Source of the DNA: Anaerobacillus sp.
GTDB lineage: Bacteria > Bacillota > Bacilli > Bacillales > Anaerobacillaceae
Assembly (NCBI GenBank): GCA_007118195.1
Contig: SKSA01000130.1
Span: 1 to 17,053, forward strand
Length of the DNA: 17,053 nt
Direction of reading: 5' to 3'
The first letter of the stretch is position 1; each line of letters begins with the position of its first letter. The notes under the pieces were generated by a model that ran no database searches, was not told the origin of the DNA, and saw only the letters and a list, made by a program, of their open reading frames with translations. Of this stretch, positions 1,474 to 11,204 are shown one piece after another. Position numbers and translations under genes: made by a program.

Positions 1474-1491
1474 TTGTGAACATAATCACAA
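1474..1491 (-). promoter_or_regulatory. FNR/CRP-type operator upstream of the Dcu carrier
   Basis: The 18-base element TTGTGAACATAATCACAA is an inverted repeat that matches the Bacillus FNR consensus TGTGA-N6-TCACA exactly. On the minus strand, TAAAAT (1455-1450) and TATAAT (1446-1441) are both possible -10 boxes. They would put the operator centre about 39.5 or 48.5 bases before the start of transcription. The first is close to the -41.5 spacing usual for FNR activation. No strong -35 hexamer is visible, as expected for an activator-dependent promoter. FNR is the natural reader given the gene, but a CRP-family paralogue could bind the same sequence. Confidence 0.72.
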
Positions 1492-1646: not shown

Positions 1647-2576
1647 ATGAGAAAATATATCATTTTTTCAATCGCTATGTTTGTCATCTTTATAAGCAGT
1701 GCTTGCACCGTGAATAAAGAAGAATCAATCATACAAATTAGTCAAGAAGTATCAGAAACAAGTCCAATCGATCAGAAAATAGAAGAAGAGGAGATATTAA
1801 AATTTGCGATTCTTTCGAATGTCTCGATTAAAGAAACATATCGGACACATTATGGTTTTGTTCGTTTAGTTGAAAAAACTTTAGGAAAGCCCGTCGAAAT
1901 CATACAGAAAAAAACGTATGACGAGGTTTTGAAAGCTTTTGAAACTGGAGAAGTGGATTTAGGCTTTGTTTGTGGTTATTTATCAGTCTTAGGTGATGAA
2001 AAAGGAATTATGGATAAACTCGTTATGCCAATTGTAGGTGGGGAGAGGAAATATACTTCTTATATTATTACGAAAGATACTGAGGAAATCAATACACTAT
2101 TTGATTTACAAGGCAAGAGCTTTGCTTTTTCCGATCCCTCATCTTTTTCAGGGTATTTAGTCCCGAAGCATTTGATTAAAACTGCAGGATTTGATTTTGA
2201 CCAATTCTTTTCAAGCAGCTTCTTCACATATAGTCACGATCATTCTGTCGCCGCTGTTGCCAATGATCTTGTAGATGCAACCGCAGTTTACAGTACAAGC
2301 TATGAAAAATTAAAAAGTGAGAACAGTCCGTTAGTTAAAGAAACGAAAGTGATTGCTGAAGGACCTTATGTAGGGAATCACCCTATTGTTGTGAACCCAG
2401 AGATGGATGAATTCTTTAGAGAGGAACTGAAAGAAATCTTTTTAAATATGCATAACGATGAAGAAGGTAAAGCGGTGTTAAATCGACTAAATTATGATTA
2501 TTTTGTAGAAGTTGATGAAGATTTATATTATCCGATTCTATCGATGATCAATGATTTGGGGAATAGCGATGACTAA
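1647..2576 (+). CDS. PhnD-like periplasmic-binding lipoprotein, probable sensor partner
   Basis: The 309-residue protein starts with a lipoprotein signal (MRKYIIFSIAMFVIFISSAC; lipid-bearing Cys20) and then a short acidic linker. The mature part is a type 2 periplasmic-binding fold of the PhnD class (phosphate/phosphite/phosphonate-type). It has the characteristic FSDPSSFSGYLVPKHLI near residues 161-177 and SHDHSVAAVANDLVDATAV near 196-214. AAGGGGG at 1631-1637 supports the start. The stop overlaps the start of the histidine kinase downstream (ATGACTAA), and no ABC permease or ATPase is nearby, so a role as ligand receptor for the kinase is more likely than transport. AioX and ArrX, PhnD-like proteins of arsenic-sensing AioXSR/ArrXSR systems, are known precedents. 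The ligand cannot be predicted; an oxyanion is a reasonable guess. Confidence 0.85.
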   Translation: MRKYIIFSIAMFVIFISSACTVNKEESIIQISQEVSETSPIDQKIEEEEILKFAILSNVSIKETYRTHYGFVRLVEKTLGKPVEIIQKKTYDEVLKAFETGEVDLGFVCGYLSVLGDEKGIMDKLVMPIVGGERKYTSYIITKDTEEINTLFDLQGKSFAFSDPSSFSGYLVPKHLIKTAGFDFDQFFSSSFFTYSHDHSVAAVANDLVDATAVYSTSYEKLKSENSPLVKETKVIAEGPYVGNHPIVVNPEMDEFFREELKEIFLNMHNDEEGKAVLNRLNYDYFVEVDEDLYYPILSMINDLGNSDD

Positions 2577-4437
2577 ACTACTACTAAAAAACCTAAGAAA
2601 TACAAGTGTAAAAATGAAAGTTCTTGGTATTACACTAGGGCTTGTCTTATTAATGGGGATTACGAGCATATTTGTTGTAAGAGAGTCATTAGTAATAAAA
2701 TTATCAGAAGATCTTGATCGGCGTGCGATTTCGATTGCTAGCGATTTATCGTCACGAACGACAGATTTTACGATTTTACACGACCTTTATAGTTTGCATA
2801 AATTACTACAACAAACCAAAAGTAATAATCCAGATATTGAATATATATTTATTCTCGATCATCAAGGAGAAGAAGTTCTCATTCATACATTAGGAAGTAA
2901 ATATGATGTAACTCGCCAATTGATCGAATTTAATCATATTAACGAATTAGAAGAAAATGAGTATCAAATGGTGTCCTATCTATCGGAAAACGGGGTGATT
3001 CATGACGTTGTGGCTCCAATTTTAGATGGCGACGTCGGTTACGTGAGAGTCGGGCTAAATGAAAACCAGATTAAAGCGACCATCAATGACCTTAGTTTTA
3101 TCATTATAATATCAACAACAGTTATATCTATTATCGGATTTATTATATCGTTTATTTTAACGAAAATTATTTATAAAGATTTATTAAAATTGATCAAAGT
3201 GAGTAAGGAAGTAGGAAAAGGGAATTTAAATACTAAGGTAGAAATTGAATCAAAAGATGAAATTGGTTTATTAGGTGAAGAGTTTAATACAATGATTGAT
3301 CGCTTGAGGACAAAGAACGATGAAAATATGGCTTATTTACAAGAACTTCAAATGAGAAATAATGAGTTATCACTATTGCACCAGCTATCTGTAACTTTTT
3401 TAGATGGTGACAGCTTTCATAAACATCTTAATCATACGGCAAAAAAATTGAAGGAAGATTTAAACCTCCAATGCTGTTATATCGAAATTAGTTTAAATGA
3501 CGAAAAAATTCAAACTTTTCACGGGAACGGTAGTGGAAATTGCGATAATTGTGTGGTTAACGGCGGGGCTAAATGCTTCGGTCCCGAAAATTATCATATT
3601 TTTCCTTTAGAGACGAGTAAACAAAATACAGGGAAAGTTTCAATTTGTTTCAAAGAAGATCCAGATGAAGTTACGCTTAAATTTATTAATTCATTTATTC
3701 GTCAACTATCTGTTATTGTAGAGAACGCGTTATTATGGCAAGAGATCAAATATAAAGAGGAATTACGCTTAAAACTACTAGAACGTGTCATTTCAGCGCA
3801 AGAAGAAGAACGAAAACGTATTGCTCGTGAGCTTCACGATGAAACGAGTCAGTCACTCGCTACGATTGTTCTTGGGGTTACGATGTTAGAAGAAACTGAA
3901 CAAGATCAACAACTCCGAAATAAGTTAACAGATTTAAGGAAAATAACTGAAAAAACCATTGATGAAGTTCACTATCTATCATGGTCATTGAGACCAAGTG
4001 CTTTAGATGATTACGGCTTGTTACCAGCTATAAAAAAGTATGCTGAGGAATTTAAGAAAAAATATGATATAGAAGTGGATATTCAAGTAATCGGCTTTGA
4101 AGAAATTCGCCTTCCATCGGTTGTTGAAATCTCGATTTATCGGGTAATTCAAGAGGCATTAACGAATGCGGCGCGACACGCAGATGCTGAAAATATAAGT
4201 ATTATTATAAAGCATGTAAAAAATGTGGTTAGTTTTATTATCGAGGATGATGGAAACGGTTTTAATGCTAAAGAAACGGTTAACAGAAAACTAACAAAAA
4301 ATCACCTTGGATTAAAAGGAATGCAAGAACGAATAGAATCAATTGGTGGTCGTTTCTTCATTGAATCTAACCCAGGCATGGGGACTTCGATTTACGTAAA
4401 TGATATAAAAATTGGTGGTGTTGATTATGAAAGTTAA
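2569..4437 (+). CDS. NarX-like sensor histidine kinase with a cysteine cluster
   Basis: This membrane kinase has 622 residues. Order: membrane span near 17-37, extracytoplasmic sensor domain about 38-173 (EYIFILDHQGEE resembles a Cache-type core), second span about 176-197, HAMP about 198-250, GAF-like central domain about 265-395, then HisKA_3 with phosphoacceptor His423 in RELHDETSQSLA, and the ATPase domain (N box near 528-536, DDGNGF 560-565). The central domain carries Cys302, Cys303, Cys325, Cys328, Cys336 and Cys360. NarX-type kinases have a cysteine cluster here, and NreB uses cysteines for an Fe-S oxygen sensor. The ATG at 2569 is chosen over the in-frame ATG at 2551 because GGGGA lies eight bases upstream and it overlaps the preceding stop. 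Signals probably come both from the binding protein outside and from redox state inside. Confidence 0.9.
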   Translation: MTKLLLKNLRNTSVKMKVLGITLGLVLLMGITSIFVVRESLVIKLSEDLDRRAISIASDLSSRTTDFTILHDLYSLHKLLQQTKSNNPDIEYIFILDHQGEEVLIHTLGSKYDVTRQLIEFNHINELEENEYQMVSYLSENGVIHDVVAPILDGDVGYVRVGLNENQIKATINDLSFIIIISTTVISIIGFIISFILTKIIYKDLLKLIKVSKEVGKGNLNTKVEIESKDEIGLLGEEFNTMIDRLRTKNDENMAYLQELQMRNNELSLLHQLSVTFLDGDSFHKHLNHTAKKLKEDLNLQCCYIEISLNDEKIQTFHGNGSGNCDNCVVNGGAKCFGPENYHIFPLETSKQNTGKVSICFKEDPDEVTLKFINSFIRQLSVIVENALLWQEIKYKEELRLKLLERVISAQEEERKRIARELHDETSQSLATIVLGVTMLEETEQDQQLRNKLTDLRKITEKTIDEVHYLSWSLRPSALDDYGLLPAIKKYAEEFKKKYDIEVDIQVIGFEEIRLPSVVEISIYRVIQEALTNAARHADAENISIIIKHVKNVVSFIIEDDGNGFNAKETVNRKLTKNHLGLKGMQERIESIGGRFFIESNPGMGTSIYVNDIKIGGVDYES

Positions 4438-5089
4438 AATCTTATTAGTTGATGATCATGACGCATTATTATCAGGAATAAAGCTCTGGTTGTCTCAAGT
4501 AGATGAATGGGAAGTAGTTGCTGAAGCTTCAAGTGGTGAGGAAGCGATTGAGTTAACAAGGTCACTTAAACCAGACTTAGTTTTAATGGATATTTCGATG
4601 CCGGGAATTGGTGGCATTGGCGCCTTAGAAAAAATAAAAGAAGATAACCCGAACGTAAAAGTATTAATGCTTACGATGCATTCTGAAGAAGAGTATTTAA
4701 AAAGAGCTTTAAGAAAAGGTGCATCAGGATTTGTGCTTAAGAAGGCAGCGCATACTGAACTCATTTCAGCTATTAATACGGTTCTTTCTGGGGAAACGTA
4801 CATTTATCCATCTTTAACGAATCTTTTAATTAAAGGGTTTGTAGGGAAAGATGAGGAGGATAAAGAGGGACAAAGCTCAAAACGAAGCTTACTTAGTGAG
4901 CGAGAAGAAGAAGTCTTAAAATATATCGCATTAGGTTTTACGTATGGAGAAATTGCTAAGCAGTTGTTTGTAAGTATAAAAACAGTAGAAGCGTATAAAA
5001 GTAGAATATCTGAGAAGTTAAAGTTGAAGCGGAGGTCAGAGTTAGTAAGGTTCGCAATTGATGAAGGGTTAATTTCAATCAATGAATAA
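4427..5089 (+). CDS. NarL/FixJ-family response regulator
   Basis: The 220-residue protein has a receiver domain (Asp9 and Asp10, phosphoacceptor Asp55 in LVLMDISMPG, Thr83, Lys105) and a LuxR-type helix-turn-helix at about 153-215 (LSEREEEVLKYIALGFTYGE, then IAKQLFVSIKTVEAY). ATG 4427 overlaps the kinase stop by 11 bases and follows GGTGGTG, so the two are translationally coupled; a TTG 15 bases upstream is a less likely start. It is the cognate partner of the NarX-like kinase. It may act on the cytochrome, apbE or Dcu genes around it, but no site for it could be demonstrated. Confidence 0.93.
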   Translation: MKVKILLVDDHDALLSGIKLWLSQVDEWEVVAEASSGEEAIELTRSLKPDLVLMDISMPGIGGIGALEKIKEDNPNVKVLMLTMHSEEEYLKRALRKGASGFVLKKAAHTELISAINTVLSGETYIYPSLTNLLIKGFVGKDEEDKEGQSSKRSLLSEREEEVLKYIALGFTYGEIAKQLFVSIKTVEAYKSRISEKLKLKRRSELVRFAIDEGLISINE

Positions 5090-5228: not shown

Positions 5229-5246
5229 GTGTGATAAAAATCACAC
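5229..5246 (+). promoter_or_regulatory. FNR/CRP-type operator upstream of the hexaheme cytochrome
   Basis: GTGTGATAAAAATCACAC is a perfect 18-base inverted repeat matching TGTGA-N6-TCACA. An activator at -41.5 would place transcription start near 5279 and the -10 region near 5267-5272, where the sequence is AT-rich (AATTAAAAC) but has no consensus hexamer. The untranslated leader would be about 30 bases to the leader ORF. With the operator at 1474-1491 this makes two exact matches in the window, both in front of anaerobic-respiration-type genes. Confidence 0.75.
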
Positions 5247-5310
5247 GATTTTTCATAGTGTCGAATTAAAACTCATTTTTAGCAGTGTTTAGAAGTTTAG
5301 GGGGAGCATT

Positions 5311-5364
5311 ATGTTAACACAAAAAAAGAATGAGTCAAAAAAGGAAGGTGACAGGAATGTTTAA
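5311..5364 (+). CDS. Putative 17-codon leader ORF overlapping the cytochrome start
   Basis: ATG 5311 follows the strong ribosome site AGGGGGAG (5299-5306). It opens a 17-codon frame, MLTQKKNESKKEGDRNV, that stops at 5362-5364. The end overlaps the first codons of the cytochrome (ATG 5357) in another frame. The geometry is that of a translationally coupled leader peptide. Alternatively, the true cytochrome N-terminus is here and a one-base error or indel in the A-run at 5321-5327 separates the frames: removing one A joins this start to the cytochrome frame. There is no evidence that the peptide itself has a function. Confidence 0.35.
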   Translation: MLTQKKNESKKEGDRNV

Positions 5365-6295
5365 AAACATTAATAAGAAGTTATCATTAATTATTTTAGC
5401 AAGTGTATTCATAGGGATCGTCATCGCCGTTGTTGCCAATCAAGGAGCTAGTGCGACATCTGATGATAGTTTTTGTTTAAGTTGTCATGATGTACCTGAG
5501 TTTAAGGAAAATTTTGAAGCTACTCCACATGCACAAGTGGGTTGTATAAATTGTCATGGAGATGGCTTCATCAAAGATAAAGTTAAAGGTGCTTCTAAAG
5601 CATTTAGTACGATTACTGGACAGTTAGATCCGAATGATTACTCGGCAATAAAAGCAGAGGTGCCAAATGACCGGTGTTTATCTTGTCACAACATTGATAA
5701 CATCAGCCGAGACCAAGGTGTTGTAACAATGCACGAAGGTTTTGTTACAGGCGAAAGTGACACTGCTTGTACATCATGTCATAATGTACAGTTTTTCCAT
5801 GGAGATCTTGTTGGTTCTACAAAATCATCAGATGAGGCAACTGATGAAGGTGATGCAGTAGCTGAAGTTGTAGAAGTAACTGCAGACGTTTTATATAGCG
5901 ATAGCTGTGCCAATTGTCATGGAGATGACTTACAAGGAGCAGTTTACGCTGAACCGATTTCAGGCATGCCGTATGCAAACCTATTAGATAAGCTTGAAGA
6001 CGGTCATGGTGGAATTGATGAAGCTGAACATGCAGAACTGTTATCAGAGTGGATATCAAATTACGCAGGAGATGCAACTGAAGAAGATGGAGGAGCAGTA
6101 TCAGTCGACCCAGAAGGTTTATATAGCGATAGCTGTGCAAATTGTCATGGTGACGACTTACAAGGAGCAGTTTACGCTGAACCGATTTCAGGAATGCCGT
6201 ATGCAGACTTATTAGATAAGCTTGAAGACGGTCATGGTGGAATTGATGATACCGAAAGTGCAGAAAGTTTGTCACAATGGATTTCAGAACAATAA
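5357..6295 (+). CDS. Membrane-anchored hexaheme c-type cytochrome: NapC/NrfH-like domain plus two tandem monoheme domains
   Basis: The protein has 312 residues from ATG 5357, which is preceded by AAGGAAGGTGAC; an in-frame ATG at 5330 adds nine residues. A membrane anchor (about 9-30) is followed by four CXXCH motifs (Cys40, 63, 107, 138) in a NapC/NirT/NrfH-like arrangement, then an acidic linker (about 155-178). Two class I-like cytochrome modules follow, each with CANCHGDDLQG (Cys184 and Cys260) and a likely Met ligand in SGMPY (Met204, Met280). The modules repeat at exactly 76 residues and are nearly identical over about 45 residues. NapC-type proteins oxidise menaquinol and pass electrons outward; the extra hemes would extend the wire beyond the membrane. 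It has its own FNR-type operator and terminator. Electron partners, such as the FMN lipoprotein, are inferred from proximity. Confidence 0.9.
   Translation: MFKNINKKLSLIILASVFIGIVIAVVANQGASATSDDSFCLSCHDVPEFKENFEATPHAQVGCINCHGDGFIKDKVKGASKAFSTITGQLDPNDYSAIKAEVPNDRCLSCHNIDNISRDQGVVTMHEGFVTGESDTACTSCHNVQFFHGDLVGSTKSSDEATDEGDAVAEVVEVTADVLYSDSCANCHGDDLQGAVYAEPISGMPYANLLDKLEDGHGGIDEAEHAELLSEWISNYAGDATEEDGGAVSVDPEGLYSDSCANCHGDDLQGAVYAEPISGMPYADLLDKLEDGHGGIDDTESAESLSQWISEQ
5891..6286 (+). repeat. In-frame tandem duplication of a monoheme cytochrome module
   Basis: Copy 1 is 5891-6058 and copy 2 is 6119-6286, with a 228-base period. Long stretches are identical at DNA level, including TTATATAGCGATAGCTGTGC at the start of each copy, apart from a few third-position changes. 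Divergence concentrates in the last 15 codons, and the intervening linker is acidic. This indicates a recent duplication or continuing gene conversion. Confidence 0.9.
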
Positions 6296-6313
6296 AAGAT
6301 GAGTTAATAAAAG

Positions 6314-6345
6314 AATCTCTTACCTACTAAAGGTAGGAGATTTTT
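6314..6345 (+). terminator. Rho-independent terminator of the cytochrome gene
   Basis: AATCTC-T-TACCT pairs with AGGTA-G-GAGATT around a five-base loop, giving a 12-pair stem with one T-G pair, followed by TTTTT. It begins 19 bases after the cytochrome stop. The cytochrome is therefore probably a single-gene transcript, separate from apbE. Confidence 0.88.
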
Positions 6346-6380
6346 GGCGTACAAGCTGGTTTTAGGCTTATTTTAATTAA

Positions 6381-6409
6381 TTGACACTAAAATGTCTGCA
6401 CCCTATAAA
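6381..6409 (+). promoter_or_regulatory. Sigma-A-like promoter of the flavin transferase gene
   Basis: Perfect TTGACA (6381-6386) and TATAAA (6404-6409) are separated by 17 bases. Transcription would start near 6416, leaving a leader of about 73 bases with no evident hairpin. Such a near-consensus promoter suggests activator-independent expression of apbE, unlike the cytochrome. Confidence 0.75.
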
Positions 6410-6488
6410 GGAAATTTGAAATTTGAATGTTATCATTGACTATCAGAAAGTATTCAAGCCATCAGCTATGTTTGAAAGAAGGAGATAA

Positions 6489-7550
6489 ATGATGAGAAAA
6501 GTGATGGGGTTTATTTTAGTTATGTTGTTAATAACTGCATGTAGTAGCGAGACCGAAGAACAAGATTATCAAAGGTACTCAACTAATTTTTTAGATTCTT
6601 TTGATACGGTAACTCAGGTTATAGGATATGCAAGTTCCGAAGAGGAGTTTTATGAGTATGCTCACGAAATCGAGAAACGTTTCTGGGAATTTCATAAGTT
6701 GTATGACAAGTATAATGAGTATGACGGCATTAATAATATTACGACGATCAATAACAACGCGGGCATTCAGCCGGTTGAGGTGGATCAGGAAATTATCGAT
6801 ATTATTCTCTTTTCGAAAGAGTGGTATGAACGGACTCATGGAAAAATGAATATAACACTAGGAAGTTTAATCGAAATTTGGGATAAAACAATGACGCTGG
6901 CATCAGATGAACCTGAACAAGCTACTTTGCCATCAATGGAGAAATTAAAAACGGCATCATTATATACAAACATTGATGATGTTATTGTTGATGAAGAAGT
7001 AATGACTGTATTTTTGGCAGAGGAGAATATGAGCTTAGACTTAGGGGCCATTGCAAAAGGGTATGCTGCTGAAATCGTAGGAAAGGAAATGATTGAAAAA
7101 GGTTTTACTTCAGGTGCTATTATTTCAGGTGGAAATTGGAAGGTGCTAGGGCCATCACAAGACACTGAGAGAAACCATTGGACAGTAGGGATTCAAAATC
7201 CTGAGAAACCATATGTTCTCAATGAGGAAGCTATATTAGAACGAGTGAAATTAGAGGAAAAATCACTAGACACAAGTGGCGATTATCAGAGGTTTGTGAT
7301 GATTGAAGACATACGCGTCCACCATATTATTCATCCTGACACTTTAATGCCAGGAAATTATCATCGCGGTGTTACGGTATTAGCGAAAGACGCTGCAGTT
7401 ACCGAATATTTAGCTACAGAACTGTTTTTATTATCTTATGAAGAGGGACGAGCTCTTATAGATAGTCTTGATGAAATCGAGGCACTTTGGGTAAGGGAGG
7501 ACAACACCGTAAAAGCGACTGATGGAATGAAAGATAGATTGCAAAGATAA
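6489..7550 (+). CDS. apbE: ApbE-type FAD:protein FMN transferase, lipoprotein
   Basis: The enzyme transfers FMN from FAD to a Ser/Thr of exported proteins by a phosphoester bond. The 353-residue protein begins with a lipoprotein signal (lipobox ITAC, Cys18), so it acts outside the cytoplasmic membrane. Family motifs are LDLGAIAKGYA (183-193), SGGN (213-216), TSGDYQRF (262-269), HHIIHP (278-283) and TEYLATELF (305-313). In characterised ApbE/Ftp proteins the last region reads like ADALST and its Asp is a Mg ligand; here that position appears to be Glu306, with Thr310 kept. GAAGGAG lies 5-6 bases before ATG 6489 (6479-6485). The likely substrate is the triple-FMN lipoprotein encoded 2.4 kb downstream. 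No terminator was seen after the gene. Confidence 0.93.
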   Translation: MMRKVMGFILVMLLITACSSETEEQDYQRYSTNFLDSFDTVTQVIGYASSEEEFYEYAHEIEKRFWEFHKLYDKYNEYDGINNITTINNNAGIQPVEVDQEIIDIILFSKEWYERTHGKMNITLGSLIEIWDKTMTLASDEPEQATLPSMEKLKTASLYTNIDDVIVDEEVMTVFLAEENMSLDLGAIAKGYAAEIVGKEMIEKGFTSGAIISGGNWKVLGPSQDTERNHWTVGIQNPEKPYVLNEEAILERVKLEEKSLDTSGDYQRFVMIEDIRVHHIIHPDTLMPGNYHRGVTVLAKDAAVTEYLATELFLLSYEEGRALIDSLDEIEALWVREDNTVKATDGMKDRLQR

Positions 7551-7567
7551 TAAAAAAATTATATTAG

Positions 7568-7738
7568 AACGCACATTCGTTTGAACGGTTAGACGAAGTA
7601 GAAGAGTATGTAAAGAAAGTTGATTCAAAAGATCTATTTACCTACAAATGTAGCATATCGAAAACGGAAGTGTGGCTCATGGTGAGTTTTGGCGTGTTAG
7701 TTGGAAGTATAATATTCATTGATATGCAAATTATCTAG
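7568..7738 (+). other. Open frame without start codon, possible gene remnant, in the apbE-kinase gap
   Basis: Between apbE and the next kinase one frame stays open for 56 codons after a TAG at 7565. It encodes a soluble, charged half (FERLDEVEEYVKKVDSKDLF) followed by a hydrophobic tail (VWLMVSFGVLVGSIIFIDMQ) that looks like a membrane span. No ATG, GTG or TTG with a ribosome site begins it. It could be the remains of a small membrane protein, or chance. The rest of the gap has a TATAAT at 7708-7713, a possible -10 for the downstream kinase, without a convincing -35. Confidence 0.25.
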
Positions 7739-7749
7739 AGGAGATCTAA

Positions 7750-9141
7750 ATGGATAACTATTACTTTTTTATTTACTTATTGTATGGTTTAGTTTTTATC
7801 GCTATGGGAATTTATGCTAGCGGAAAAAAAGAGGAAAGTGTCATTCACATCCCATTAGTAAAATCTTTGAAATACCTAGGTGCTTTTGGAGTTACGCACG
7901 GTTTATCAGAATGGGTCACAATGGTTGTGATTACTGATTTATATGCTGGACAGTATGTATACTTGTTTTACTTTAAGCAGCTTCTTAAAGCCATATCTTT
8001 TACCTTTCTGTTATATTTTGGTGTAAGCTTGCTATTTCAGAGGGAAAAGTATTGGCAATTTGTTAGAATGCTCCCGATTTTAATCCTTGTTATTGGCGGT
8101 ACTGGAATGATGGTGCTTATTGTTCAATATGGTTGGAATTACCATATGGAACACCCGCAATACAACAGTGTTTTATTGCGATATTTTATGGGGTTACCAG
8201 GTGGGGTTATCGCGGCATGTGCATTGTATCGTCAGGCAATGCTGATGGATAAGAAAAGACTATACGATATACAAGTGAAATATAAACGGTTGGCAGTGAT
8301 ATTTTTATTTTATGGATTAGTTGATGGCTTTATCGTTAGGGAAATGGATTTTTTTCCAGCAAACGTCATTAATAATACGTTGTTTATGGAATGGTTTGGT
8401 TTTCCCGTTCAAATATTGAAGATCTTCATCGGAATAGGAATAGTTTATGTGCTCGTTCAGGTGATCAATACATTTGAATGGGAGCAAAAAGAAAGAATGA
8501 AAAAGCTTGAACAACAAAAAATTGCTTACGAAGAGCGGAAAAAGCTGGGGCTTGAAGTTCATGACAGTATTATTCAAAGTATGTATGCATCGACTTTAAA
8601 ACTGAGATTTTTGTTAAGAAAAAACGACAATCATTCGCAGCAGGTAACGAAGACGTTGCAAGAAGTGATTACAGATTTAGGAGATGCAATTAGTAAAACA
8701 AGAGAATTTATATCTGAATCTACGATGGAGCAAGTAGAATTATCAGAGTTGCAAAATAGAATCAGGTCAATGGTAGAGAACTTTAATAGTAACTCTGGAG
8801 TAAGTATTCTGGTTTCATTAGACGATCTTGATTTTATTGCTAATGGGGAGCTGACTACAAAAGAGACAACTCAAATCTATTATATCGTGCAAGAAGCTGT
8901 TAACAATTCAATTAAACACTCCAAGGGTACGTTTACAAAAGTAACGTTAGAGTCAAAGTCAAATGCTCTTCATATCAAGGTAATTGATGACGGAGTTGGA
9001 TTTTCTTTAGATGAGGTGAATCCACAAATTAATTTTGGAATTAAATCAATGAGCGAGCGGGCGGAGCAGATTGGTGGCACATTGAATATTCGAAATATAA
9101 AACTAGGAACTGAAGTTGAGCTTGTAATATTTTGGAGGTGA
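7750..9141 (+). CDS. HPK7-type sensor histidine kinase with a multi-spanning membrane sensor
   Basis: The first 240 or so residues of this 463-residue protein form about seven membrane spans, starting at residue 4 and ending near 240. LGAFGVTHGLSEWVTM (43-58) in the second is conserved-looking. A short coiled coil (about 242-265) leads to HisKA_3 with His271 in LGLEVHDSIIQSMYAS, and the ATPase domain follows (N box near 375-390, DDGVGF near 415). The sensor has almost no extracytoplasmic domain, so it probably senses something in the membrane or at its surface, such as quinone state or a lipophilic ligand; this is inference. AGAGGAGAT precedes ATG 7750. The stop codon lies within the ribosome site of the regulator that follows. 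Confidence 0.88.
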   Translation: MDNYYFFIYLLYGLVFIAMGIYASGKKEESVIHIPLVKSLKYLGAFGVTHGLSEWVTMVVITDLYAGQYVYLFYFKQLLKAISFTFLLYFGVSLLFQREKYWQFVRMLPILILVIGGTGMMVLIVQYGWNYHMEHPQYNSVLLRYFMGLPGGVIAACALYRQAMLMDKKRLYDIQVKYKRLAVIFLFYGLVDGFIVREMDFFPANVINNTLFMEWFGFPVQILKIFIGIGIVYVLVQVINTFEWEQKERMKKLEQQKIAYEERKKLGLEVHDSIIQSMYASTLKLRFLLRKNDNHSQQVTKTLQEVITDLGDAISKTREFISESTMEQVELSELQNRIRSMVENFNSNSGVSILVSLDDLDFIANGELTTKETTQIYYIVQEAVNNSIKHSKGTFTKVTLESKSNALHIKVIDDGVGFSLDEVNPQINFGIKSMSERAEQIGGTLNIRNIKLGTEVELVIFWR

Positions 9142-9146
9142 TCAGC

Positions 9147-9770
9147 TTGAGTAATAGTGTAAAGGTATTTATTGTCGATGACCACGTTGTTGTTCGAAAA
9201 GGTTTAGAAATGTTTTTGGAAGCTGATGAAAAAATTAAAGTTTGTGGAGAAGCGGGTAATTTGAACGAAGCGATAGAGTTGATTGGTCATAAAAGACCTG
9301 ATGTAGTTTTGCTTGACTTTAAATTACCTGATGGAGACGGGGTTACAGGGTGTCTAAAAATTAAAAACATGTATCCACATATCAAAGTAATTATCCTCAC
9401 CGCTTTTGCCAATGAAAATAATCTCCTCGAAGCGAAAAGAGCGGGTGCAGAGGCATATTTGCTAAAAGATGTAGAATGTGATCAATTGACCTCAACAATT
9501 TTTTCAGTATATAACGATAACGGTATTTTAGGATCACGATTTATGGTGAATGCAAAAAAACAGAGAAATGAATTTAACTTAAGTAATAAGGAAATGACGA
9601 TTTTAGATATGGTTTCGTTGGGGAAAGTCAATAAGGAAATTGCAGAAAGCATAAACGTTTCCGAAAAAACGGTGAGAAACTATATTTGTAAAATATTTAA
9701 AAAAATAAATGTCACAAACAGAACAGAAGCTGCTAGTTTCTGGCTTAGGCAAAAGGACGGACAGTTTTAA
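9147..9770 (+). CDS. NarL/FixJ-family response regulator, partner of the multi-spanning kinase
   Basis: The protein is 207 residues from a TTG start at 9147, chosen because GGAGGTGATC (9134-9143) sits just upstream at ideal spacing; the in-frame TTG at 9132 falls inside or before that site. Receiver residues Asp11, Asp12, Asp57 (VVLLDFKLP), Thr85 and Lys107 are present. A LuxR-type helix-turn-helix covers about 145-205 (LSNKEMTILDMVSLGKVNKE, then SEKTVRNYICKIFKKI). It lies six bases after the kinase stop. The two palindromes just downstream, in front of the FMN lipoprotein gene, are candidate binding sites, which would make that gene its target. Confidence 0.92.
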   Translation: MSNSVKVFIVDDHVVVRKGLEMFLEADEKIKVCGEAGNLNEAIELIGHKRPDVVLLDFKLPDGDGVTGCLKIKNMYPHIKVIILTAFANENNLLEAKRAGAEAYLLKDVECDQLTSTIFSVYNDNGILGSRFMVNAKKQRNEFNLSNKEMTILDMVSLGKVNKEIAESINVSEKTVRNYICKIFKKINVTNRTEAASFWLRQKDGQF

Positions 9771-9778
9771 TGAATATT

Positions 9779-9834
9779 GGACAAATGTCCTATAATGAAA
9801 ATTCACATTTAAGACAAATTAAGGGACATTTGTC
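9779..9834 (+). promoter_or_regulatory. Paired GACA-NN-TGTC palindromes, candidate operators of the FMN lipoprotein gene
   Basis: GGACAAATGTCC (9779-9790) is a perfect 12-base palindrome. GACATTTGTC (9825-9834) is a perfect ten-base palindrome of the same pattern. Their centres are 45 bases apart, a little over four helical turns. Relative to the promoter at 9846-9874 they lie at about -96.5 and -51.5, positions suited to activation. A perfect TATAAT (9791-9796) abuts the first palindrome; if that is the real -10, the sites would flank the start and repress instead. NarL-family dimers bind such inverted repeats, and the adjacent regulator is the obvious candidate. Confidence 0.5.
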
Positions 9835-9845
9835 ACCACCATAGT

Positions 9846-9874
9846 TTTACACAATCCATGCTATTCTTTAAATG
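9846..9874 (+). promoter_or_regulatory. Sigma-A-like promoter of the triple-FMN lipoprotein gene
   Basis: TTTACA (9846-9851) and TAAATG (9869-9874) are separated by 17 bases. Transcription would start near 9881, about 34 bases before the ATG. The match is moderate, which is consistent with help from an activator at the upstream palindromes. Confidence 0.5.
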
Positions 9875-9914
9875 TACTTAAATACTTAAAGAAATAAATG
9901 GAGGGGGAAGTTAA

Positions 9915-11204
9915 ATGAAGAAGCTTTCTTTATTATTTTTAATGTTGGCAATGGCAATGGCGTTAACATTGACAGGATGTAGCGATAGTGAGGACACAAC
10001 TGCTGATGAACCATCAGGAGAGGAACCAGTTGGTGAAGAGCCTGCAGGAGAAGAACCAGCTGATGAAGAGCCAGCAGGTGAAGAACCAGCTGATGCAACT
10101 GGCTATGACGATGGAAGATACAGAGGGATCTATGCAGATCGTGACCTTGAGCAAGTAGGTATTCAGTTTGAAATTGAGGACAATGTATTTACTGACGTAA
10201 GTTTCAGACAGTTAGCGCACGGAGGTAATGATTATCGTGCGATGGAAGAAGGCGAGCCAATGTACGCGTTAAAGCAGCTGTATGTCGAGGCTGCAGAGTA
10301 CCTAGTAGGCAAGCCATTAGAAGCAGTTAATGATTTATATTCACCTGGAGACATTATCGATGACATTGATGGATTTAGTAGTGCAACGATTAGAGCGAAC
10401 AAGATCGTTTCAGCCATTAATGATGGTTTGAATAGAGGCTTATACGTACCAGCGGGTGAATTTAGTAGAGAAATTGGTTCTTATGACGATGGAAGATACA
10501 GAGGAATTTACTCAGACCGTAGTCTTGAGCAAGTAGGTATTCAGTTTGAAATTGAGGACAACGTATTTACTGACGTAGGCTTCAGACAGTTAGCTCACGG
10601 TGGTAATGACTATCGTGGCATGGAAGAAGGCGAGCCGATGTATGCGTTAAAGCAGCTTTATGAAGAAGCAGCTGATTATTTAGTAGGAAAACCATTAGAA
10701 GCAGTCTTTGATCTACATTCACCAGGCGACATTATTGAAGATATTGATGGCTTTAGTAGCGCAACAATTAGATCAAATAAAATCTTTTCAGCGGTTATGG
10801 ATGGTTTGAATAGAGGATTATACGTACCAGCGGGTGAATTTAGTACAGAAGTCGGTTCATATGATGATGGAAGATACAGAGGAACATATGGTGACCGTGA
10901 CCTTGAGCAGGTTGGTGTTCAGTTTGAGATTGAAGATAACGTATTTACAAGCATTTCTTTCAGACAGTTAGCTCATGGTGGCAATGACTATCGTGGCATG
11001 GAAGAAGGCGAGCCAATGTATGCGTTAAAGCAATTATATGAAGAAGCGGCTGAATACTTAGTAGGTAAGCCATTAGAAGCAGTCTATGATTTGCATACAC
11101 CAGGCGAGATTATCGATGATATCGATGGATTTAGTAGTGCAACGATTAGATCTAATAAGATCTTCTCGGCAATCATGGATGGTTTAAACAGAGGGCTTTA
11201 TTAA
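9915..11204 (+). CDS. Lipoprotein with three FMN-binding domains, predicted to carry three covalent FMN groups
   Basis: This 429-residue protein has a lipoprotein signal (LTGC, Cys22), an acidic pentapeptide linker (31-60) and three FMN_bind-type domains (about 64-182, 190-308, 316-429). Each domain starts with YDDGRYRG and ends with DGFSSATIR(A/S)NKI. The Thr of SSAT is the expected ApbE flavinylation site: Thr158, Thr284 and Thr410, spaced exactly 126 residues apart. No heme motif or catalytic reductase domain is present, so it is an electron carrier rather than an enzyme. Listeria PplA, a two-domain flavinylated lipoprotein of extracellular electron transfer, is the closest known analogue. 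GGAGGGGGAAG precedes ATG 9915. A strong terminator follows. It is apparently controlled by the preceding two-component pair and flavinylated by the ApbE encoded upstream. Confidence 0.93.
   Translation: MKKLSLLFLMLAMAMALTLTGCSDSEDTTADEPSGEEPVGEEPAGEEPADEEPAGEEPADATGYDDGRYRGIYADRDLEQVGIQFEIEDNVFTDVSFRQLAHGGNDYRAMEEGEPMYALKQLYVEAAEYLVGKPLEAVNDLYSPGDIIDDIDGFSSATIRANKIVSAINDGLNRGLYVPAGEFSREIGSYDDGRYRGIYSDRSLEQVGIQFEIEDNVFTDVGFRQLAHGGNDYRGMEEGEPMYALKQLYEEAADYLVGKPLEAVFDLHSPGDIIEDIDGFSSATIRSNKIFSAVMDGLNRGLYVPAGEFSTEVGSYDDGRYRGTYGDRDLEQVGVQFEIEDNVFTSISFRQLAHGGNDYRGMEEGEPMYALKQLYEEAAEYLVGKPLEAVYDLHTPGEIIDDIDGFSSATIRSNKIFSAIMDGLNRGLY
10005..10094 (+). repeat. Six acidic pentapeptide repeats (linker of the FMN lipoprotein)
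   Basis: Codons 31-60 encode DEPSG, EEPVG, EEPAG, EEPAD, EEPAG and EEPAD, six 15-base units. Proline-rich acidic repeats directly after a lipid anchor are usually extended stalks, here placing the flavin domains away from the membrane. Repeat number may vary between strains. Confidence 0.9.
10104..11201 (+). repeat. Three tandem 378-base repeats encoding FMN domains
   Basis: Unit 1 is 10104-10481, unit 2 is 10482-10859, and unit 3 is 10860-11201, lacking the last 12 codons. Period is exactly 126 codons with no indels. Protein sequences are close to identical over long blocks such as LAHGGNDYR and EEGEPMYALKQLY, and long DNA stretches are shared. Recent amplification or gene conversion is likely. 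Confidence 0.93.

Follow-up and report, generated by a model that had tools for sequence, protein, structure and literature searches.

Listeria-type extracellular electron transfer (EET; Ndh2, EetA, EetB, FmnA, FmnB and PplA) is recognised operationally, in the part of PMC8238504 that defines it, by an NADH dehydrogenase gene within a flavinylation gene cluster. That paper describes ten flavinylated systems, multi-flavinylated proteins and the interchange of flavin and heme, and the idea of such interchange is thus already known. Together with PMC11334425, that survey sorts ApbE-linked electron transfer into ten kinds, mostly named after the membrane donor, plus DUF4405; the words NapC and NrfH are absent from the main texts of both. 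Here, we analysed a window (the whole stretch of 17,053 nucleotides; contig SKSA01000130.1 of GenBank assembly GCA_007118195.1, our contig C359) from an Anaerobacillus genome that is 62% complete; among named organisms, A. arseniciselenatis DSM 15340 is closest to it. Its + strand carries a block of eight genes, encoding a PhnD-like lipoprotein, histidine kinase HK1, response regulator RR1, a hexaheme cytochrome, ApbE, histidine kinase HK2, response regulator RR2 and a lipoprotein with three flavin mononucleotide (FMN)-binding domains (Table 1). A. arseniciselenatis holds the full block in unchanged order (87–97% identity, different genes on both flanks) under purifying selection, the ratio of nonsynonymous to synonymous substitution rates (dN/dS) being 0.03–0.17 for the eight genes.

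The block resembles Listeria-type EET in its lipoprotein ApbE and multi-flavin lipoprotein, and the corresponding cluster of Bacillaceae IKA-2 holds EetB (PF07456), EetA-like (NusG_II) and FmnA-like genes; unlike that system, the block has a NapC/NirT-type cytochrome and no NADH dehydrogenase gene, and the window retains only an fmnA-like relic. As in SaFMN3 and CbFMN4 (relevant passages of PMC8238504 and PMC10339131), the lipoprotein has three FMN-binding domains of the same fold, whereas its motif has serine for glycine and its family often stands beside a kinase-regulator pair with an upstream palindrome. The cytochrome shares with CymA, NrfH and ImoA a membrane anchor, four hemes, three distal histidines and, as far as an alignment tells, a conserved lysine; it differs from them in forming a small subfamily with tethered cytochrome c domains. 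In Shewanella, CymA passes electrons to the flavinylated urocanate reductase UrdA, a pairing of a NapC-type donor with a covalent-FMN acceptor that the block would repeat; UrdA, however, is a periplasmic reductase of a Gram-negative, whereas the acceptor here would be an FMN-domain-only lipoprotein of a Gram-positive. This heme-and-flavin outlet looks like a combination of two parts usually found in separate systems, and neither a NapC-type partner nor a shared sensor nor a palindrome for multi-FMN proteins was found in the literature searched.

The original prediction, made from the letters of this window, had placed a membrane hexaheme cytochrome, a lipoprotein ApbE and a three-FMN lipoprotein within 6 kb, interleaved with a two-component pair, and had read them as a flavin-heme electron outlet. 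Domain matches confirmed this gene content, and the interpretation as a whole was partly supported.

A NapC/NirT-type cytochrome beside an FMN-domain lipoprotein

The N-terminal half of the cytochrome is a NapC/NirT-type tetraheme domain that follows one membrane helix (18–36) and has CXXCH motifs at 49, 72, 116 and 147, and the C-terminal half consists of two cytochrome c domains, which share 50 of their 58 residues and 152 of their 174 bases. The protein scored 46.1 bits against PF03264 (cut-off 24.1), and the profile of its tetraheme subfamily matched NrfH (2j7a; E 5.1e-7). Three distal histidines for the four hemes (H67, H135 and H157) are invariant in 14 of 14 subfamily rows, as is lysine K84 in 17 of 17 rows, which by alignment only is equated with the quinol-site lysine. 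CXXCHXM was not found at heme 1 in the subfamily (V, A or T replaces M in 14/14 rows), and this methionine is absent from CymA too (PMC13390432). The passages of that paper on ImoA, a NapC/NirT protein, describe heme I as high-spin, predict the other three to be bis-histidine and a lysine to act at menaquinone, and supplied our criterion for NapC/NirT proteins, namely three distal histidines and one high-spin heme. With distal histidines and a lysine as described there, the cytochrome is, judged by sequence, NapC/NirT-type; it falls short of the NCBIfam models for NapC proper and NrfH proper.

A search of 5.8 billion proteins with the subfamily profile returned 5617 candidates, among which 15 clusters belonged to the subfamily at E 1e-10; the five that carry an organism name are all Anaerobacillus or IKA-2. 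With the full-length cytochrome as query, three clusters were found: one near-identical to the window, one from A. arseniciselenatis and a seven-heme form whose tail has three domains. Subfamily members carry 0, 2 or 3 tethered cytochrome c domains, the tailless form including that of IKA-2, whose fourth heme motif is CX4CH. Sister tetraheme cytochromes of the genus adjoin five- or six-heme lipoproteins, so the FMN lipoprotein occupies the usual place of a multiheme lipoprotein. As a separate observation, paired 8-10-heme and 12-heme cytochromes with distant similarity to the tetraheme domain occur in three genus genomes (G000:C309 3426–5798, L061; IKA-2, L099; G004, L060).

The same three of seven genus genomes have apbE, the gene of the FMN lipoprotein and close homologues of HK2, in all of which a cytochrome of this subfamily lies beside or near the apbE/FMN genes. 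Gene order differs while linkage is kept, being cyt-apbE-HK2-RR2-FMN in the window and A. arseniciselenatis and FMN-cyt in IKA-2. A phylum-wide search of 398 genomes for the FMN family matched 11, of which one is the window's genome and the other ten belong to no Anaerobacillus. PF03116 (NqrB, RnfD, RnfE) was present in all ten outside genomes and in 0/7 Anaerobacillus genomes, four of them at least 99% complete, which makes a substitute electron donor the best reading of the cytochrome; ApbE occurs in 10/10 and PF03264 in 2/10 of the outside genomes. The co-occurrence that had been proposed as a check thus held within the genus and failed beyond it, as a NapC-type gene was absent from all 15 FMN stretches fetched from the outside genomes, including the eight multi-domain loci. 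The simplest reading is that an FMN lipoprotein that elsewhere could draw on RNF has, in Anaerobacillus, been placed at the multiheme lipoprotein's spot with a NapC-type donor. No NADH dehydrogenase was found among the window's genes, the genome not having been searched for a Listeria-type one, and the earlier statement that the locus lacks a terminal reductase was borne out among the block genes of the window, A. arseniciselenatis and IKA-2.

The three domains of the FMN lipoprotein are ~88% identical to one another in protein, and having more than one FMN-binding domain is a feature that it shares with multi-flavinylated proteins. Among the best 7993 candidates scored, relatives numbered at least 209 proteins at E 1e-5, of which 120 were listed; among the matches listed were Desulfuribacillus, Natronincola, Proteinivorax, Alkaliphilus and Tindallia, with identities of 58% (Desulfuribacillus alkaliarsenatis) and 55% (Natronincola). 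The best solved relative of ApbE is 7esa, which we take to be Listeria FmnB. The apbE gene is intact (dN/dS 0.113, window vs A. arseniciselenatis), and its product is the only ApbE found in the window's genome at 62% completeness.

In IKA-2, genes for ApbE, a NusG_II protein (presumably EetA), EetB (PF07456), an FmnA-like protein, HK2, RR2, the FMN lipoprotein and the cytochrome stand in a row, the last two 50 bases apart on one strand; the FmnA-like protein has no Pfam match and is named by place and look. A. arseniciselenatis has an EetA-like gene between ApbE and HK2 and a second locus with ApbE, EetA-like, EetB and FmnA-like genes. In the window, 53 remaining codons of an fmnA-like gene lie directly before HK2, with a stop a few codons upstream (66% identity to the IKA-2 FmnA-like protein, E 2.6e-23). 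EetB-FmnA exports flavin adenine dinucleotide (FAD; PMC9973259, in the part concerned), and its genes are in-cluster in IKA-2, in a second locus in A. arseniciselenatis and a relic in the window. From the relic and the second locus, it follows that FAD-export genes decayed in the window's block, and another locus may provide the function, although PF07456 revealed none in the window's 62% complete genome. The predicted kinship with flavin export is accordingly visible in the IKA-2 EetB, EetA- and FmnA-like genes, the A. arseniciselenatis EetA-like gene and the window's relic, and does not extend to an NADH dehydrogenase in the block.

Two putative flavin lipoproteins elsewhere were observed. 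In G487 (L095 8495–10969), an 824-residue relative of the FMN lipoprotein, in which the motif occurs six times, lies beside HK2-RR2. On A. arseniciselenatis contig 10 (L059 6803–8056), downstream of ApbE, EetA-like, EetB and FmnA-like genes, a lipoprotein without a Pfam match has three C-terminal flavinylation motifs, which recur every 15 residues as tandem repeats of 45 bases; it looks like a putative ApbE substrate in which a row of flavin tags replaces FMN domains.

The HK2-RR2-FMN unit and its upstream palindrome

All matches in the ten outside genomes were viewed, comprising eight multi-domain FMN loci (six genomes) and seven stretches whose FMN proteins are all single-domain. Of the eight multi-domain loci, three (G491, G761 and G487) have homologues of HK2 and RR2 flanking the FMN gene, as against 0/7 single-domain stretches; in G761, a five-heme lipoprotein gene lies 4.7 kb from the FMN gene on the opposite strand. 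Within the genus, strong matches to the membrane part of HK2 (378–533 bits) were confined to the three of seven genomes that carry the FMN lipoprotein, and the window's genome has an additional weaker paralogue (116 bits). The FMN lipoprotein and HK2-RR2 form a unit that recurs across Bacillota, without the cytochrome among distant members.

We scanned 320 bases upstream of the FMN gene for GACAWWTGTC and found it in all six loci that have the HK2-RR2 pair (window, A. arseniciselenatis, IKA-2, G491, G761 and G487), two copies with at most one mismatch being present in five of them, against an expectation per locus of 0.0005–0.002 (Markov resampling). It was present upstream of the FMN gene in 0/5 multi-domain loci without HK2-RR2, and anywhere in 0/7 single-domain stretches. 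Since the window supplied the pattern and A. arseniciselenatis is its close kin, the real test is the remaining loci (4/4). GGACAWWTGTCM occurs three times in the complete IKA-2 genome, two of them in the cluster (upstream of FMN and of apbE), and four times in the window's genome, two of them in this block and one upstream of a hexaheme-lipoprotein gene that adjoins a paralogue of HK2. Counted separately on each strand, GACAWWTGTC was also found 1–9 times in the four genus genomes that lack the unit, and 6–9 times in G491 and G761; reversed-pattern controls gave 2–5, so single sites elsewhere mean little. The unit with its palindrome offers a handle, testable phylum-wide, on the signals of multi-flavin proteins whose role is unclear.

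In G000:C328 (L135, 1868–5869), an HK2-like kinase and regulator face the gene of a hexaheme lipoprotein, which is preceded at 93 bases by GGACAATTGTCA; sensors of the HK2 family thus seem to act on a heme outlet as well. A stretch of G761 (C4 180001–199900, L136) has three successive HK2-like kinase-regulator pairs beside 6-, 12-, 7- and 12-heme cytochrome genes, and no GACAWWTGTC.

The cytochrome gene has a site of its own, TGTGATAAAAATCACA, which is identical upstream of the A. arseniciselenatis cytochrome and differs from the FMN-gene palindromes. We read it as Fnr- or Rex-type, comparing it with the Fnr consensus. The Rex site used for comparison is that given in PMC2883068. A second exact TGTGAN6TCACA lies at window 1475–1490, 83 bases upstream of the dcu start on the opposite strand.

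Proposed electron route and its rivals

Gene content, linkage, sites and conservation were observed; the electron-transfer steps we infer. Menaquinol would be oxidised at the first heme of the cytochrome, and electrons would cross the tetraheme domain and then the tethered cytochrome c domains to reduce the three FMN groups of the lipoprotein, presumably attached by the neighbouring ApbE, as homology suggests. The lipoprotein could then pass electrons to an acceptor, whether soluble or solid, or to a reductase whose gene lies elsewhere. In RNF-bearing relatives, RNF or a similar complex would feed the FMN lipoprotein, a role that the NapC-type cytochrome would have taken over in Anaerobacillus. 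RR2 is predicted to bind the GACAWWTGTC palindromes and switch the FMN gene, with the cytochrome gene under the separate putative Fnr- or Rex-type site. Our judgement is evenly balanced on whether the block is a respiratory electron outlet, from cytochrome to FMN lipoprotein, on the external face of the cell membrane of an anaerobic member of the Bacillota. We put forward only tentatively, with some doubt, the wider proposal of a Gram-positive menaquinol-to-flavin outlet in which a NapC-type cytochrome with a growing cytochrome c tail replaces the absent RNF, NQR and in-cluster NADH dehydrogenase as donor to a multi-FMN lipoprotein, and in which flavin and heme outlets, as interchangeable ends of one kind of wire, come under a single family of membrane sensor kinases and its GACAWWTGTC regulon. 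If the cytochrome does feed the flavin lipoprotein, multi-flavin reduction in Gram-positives would be quinol-linked, not NADH-linked, with a different energy yield.

Several results weigh against such a chain. The predicted NapC-type quinol donor has the residues of NapC/NirT quinol dehydrogenases, from which quinol oxidation would follow by analogy, and does not reach the NCBIfam cut-offs of NrfH (44.8 bits vs 134.2 needed) or NapC (TIGR02161; 22.9 vs 310.6); its structure model is poor (predicted local distance difference test 53.9), with no fold match. A tree left a single origin of the FMN-linked cytochromes neither supported nor rejected (approximately unbiased test, p-AU 0.326), the pairing with FMN is seen in only two independent arrangements (the window and A. 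arseniciselenatis being close kin), and two of the three carriers without PF03116 have incomplete genomes (62% and about 80%). The potential of menaquinone lies above the −184 mV of the multi-FMN protein SaFMN3, so the electron step may be uphill at neutral pH; the SaFMN3 value is from the relevant passage of PMC10339131. The scan found nine terminator-like sites between genes, compared to 4.6 in shuffles, and the block may therefore not be one transcript. Finally, where multi-flavinylated proteins have an [S/T]GA[S/T]-like motif, the flavinylation motif is SSAT rather than SGAT in all three domains, with D, A and T kept and G lost, a glycine retained at each site in 65 of 67 aligned proteins; in another protein, Gly to Ala cut flavinylation to about half (PMC12052999, in the passage on this change).

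The terminator-like sites, the separate Fnr- or Rex-type site of the cytochrome as opposed to the palindromes of the FMN gene, and PhnD-HK1-RR1 homologues that accompany a heme-only module in G003 and IKA-2 would also fit two adjacent modules under shared anaerobic control, in which the cytochrome feeds a reductase or other acceptor and an NADH dehydrogenase encoded elsewhere feeds the FMN lipoprotein. We consider this rather unlikely, as neither site type lies within the 50-base gap of IKA-2 and no block gene encodes a reductase. The motif change bears on another possibility, that the lipoprotein is flavin-free in this species and acts as a scaffold or redox-sensing partner of HK2: SSAT is found in 3/3 motifs of A. 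arseniciselenatis too (IKA-2 has SGAT), HK2-RR2 is the commonest neighbour of the FMN lipoprotein, and the window's fmnA-like gene has decayed. This seems improbable given the intact, conserved and sole ApbE found, the A or S at the glycine position in 37 of the 338 motifs that the 119 further listed members of the family contain, and the second apbE of A. arseniciselenatis beside eetA-, eetB- and fmnA-like genes. The chain might even run inward, electrons of an outside donor entering via the FMN and heme proteins, by analogy with ImoA, a relative from NapC/NirT that takes part in electron uptake (so described in PMC13390432); we regard this as very improbable, because anaerobic control would be expected from the Fnr- or Rex-type site and nothing within the block points to an outside donor.

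Other features of the block

Coordinates are collected in Table 1; the window's Dcu transporter and sugar-uptake genes lie outside the block, and the cytochrome gene has an alternative possible start at 5357.

Table 1. Positions in the window of the block genes, candidate regulatory sites and motifs.
Feature	Position	Strand	Detail
PhnD-like solute-binding lipoprotein	1647..2576	+	PF12974 198 bits; lipobox SSAC
HK1, histidine kinase, sCache and HAMP domains	2551..4437	+	96% in A. arseniciselenatis
RR1, NarL-type response regulator	4412..5089	+	PF00072 and PF00196
TGTGATAAAAATCACA, Fnr- or Rex-type palindrome upstream of cytochrome gene	5230..5245	.	exact match
Hexaheme membrane cytochrome, NapC/NirT-type tetraheme domain and two tandem cytochrome c domains	5330..6295	+	
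ApbE, lipoprotein FAD:protein FMN transferase	6489..7550	+	
fmnA-like relic (ECF-T subunit of FAD exporter)	7577..7735	+	last 53 codons, no intact gene
HK2, histidine kinase	7750..9141	+	membrane sensor domain of about six helices
RR2, NarL-type response regulator	9132..9770	+	
GGACAAATGTCC, proposed RR2 operator 1	9779..9790	.	
GGACATTTGTCA, proposed RR2 operator 2	9824..9835	.	
Lipoprotein, three FMN-binding domains	9915..11204	+	
Flavinylation-like motif 1	10368..10388	+	DGFSSAT
Flavinylation-like motif 2	10746..10766	+	DGFSSAT
Flavinylation-like motif 3	11124..11144	+	DGFSSAT

The PhnD-like lipoprotein (92% identical in A. arseniciselenatis), whose gene overlaps HK1 by 26 bases, is likely the ligand sensor of the first two-component system. 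HK1 homologues (57% and 56%) stand upstream of a hexaheme lipoprotein and tetraheme cytochrome in G003 (L033) and IKA-2 (L037) as part of PhnD-HK1-RR1 sets; in IKA-2, two genes that look transposon-like separate PhnD from HK1. The sensor set also turns up beside a flavin protein in G742 (L145 9858–14789), where distant PhnD, HK1 and RR1 relatives (30%, 38% and 45%) adjoin a divergent single-domain FMN protein. Between its HAMP and kinase domains, HK1 has a cysteine cluster, NCDNC...C (residues 331–342, window 3541–3576), which is perhaps a redox or metal site.

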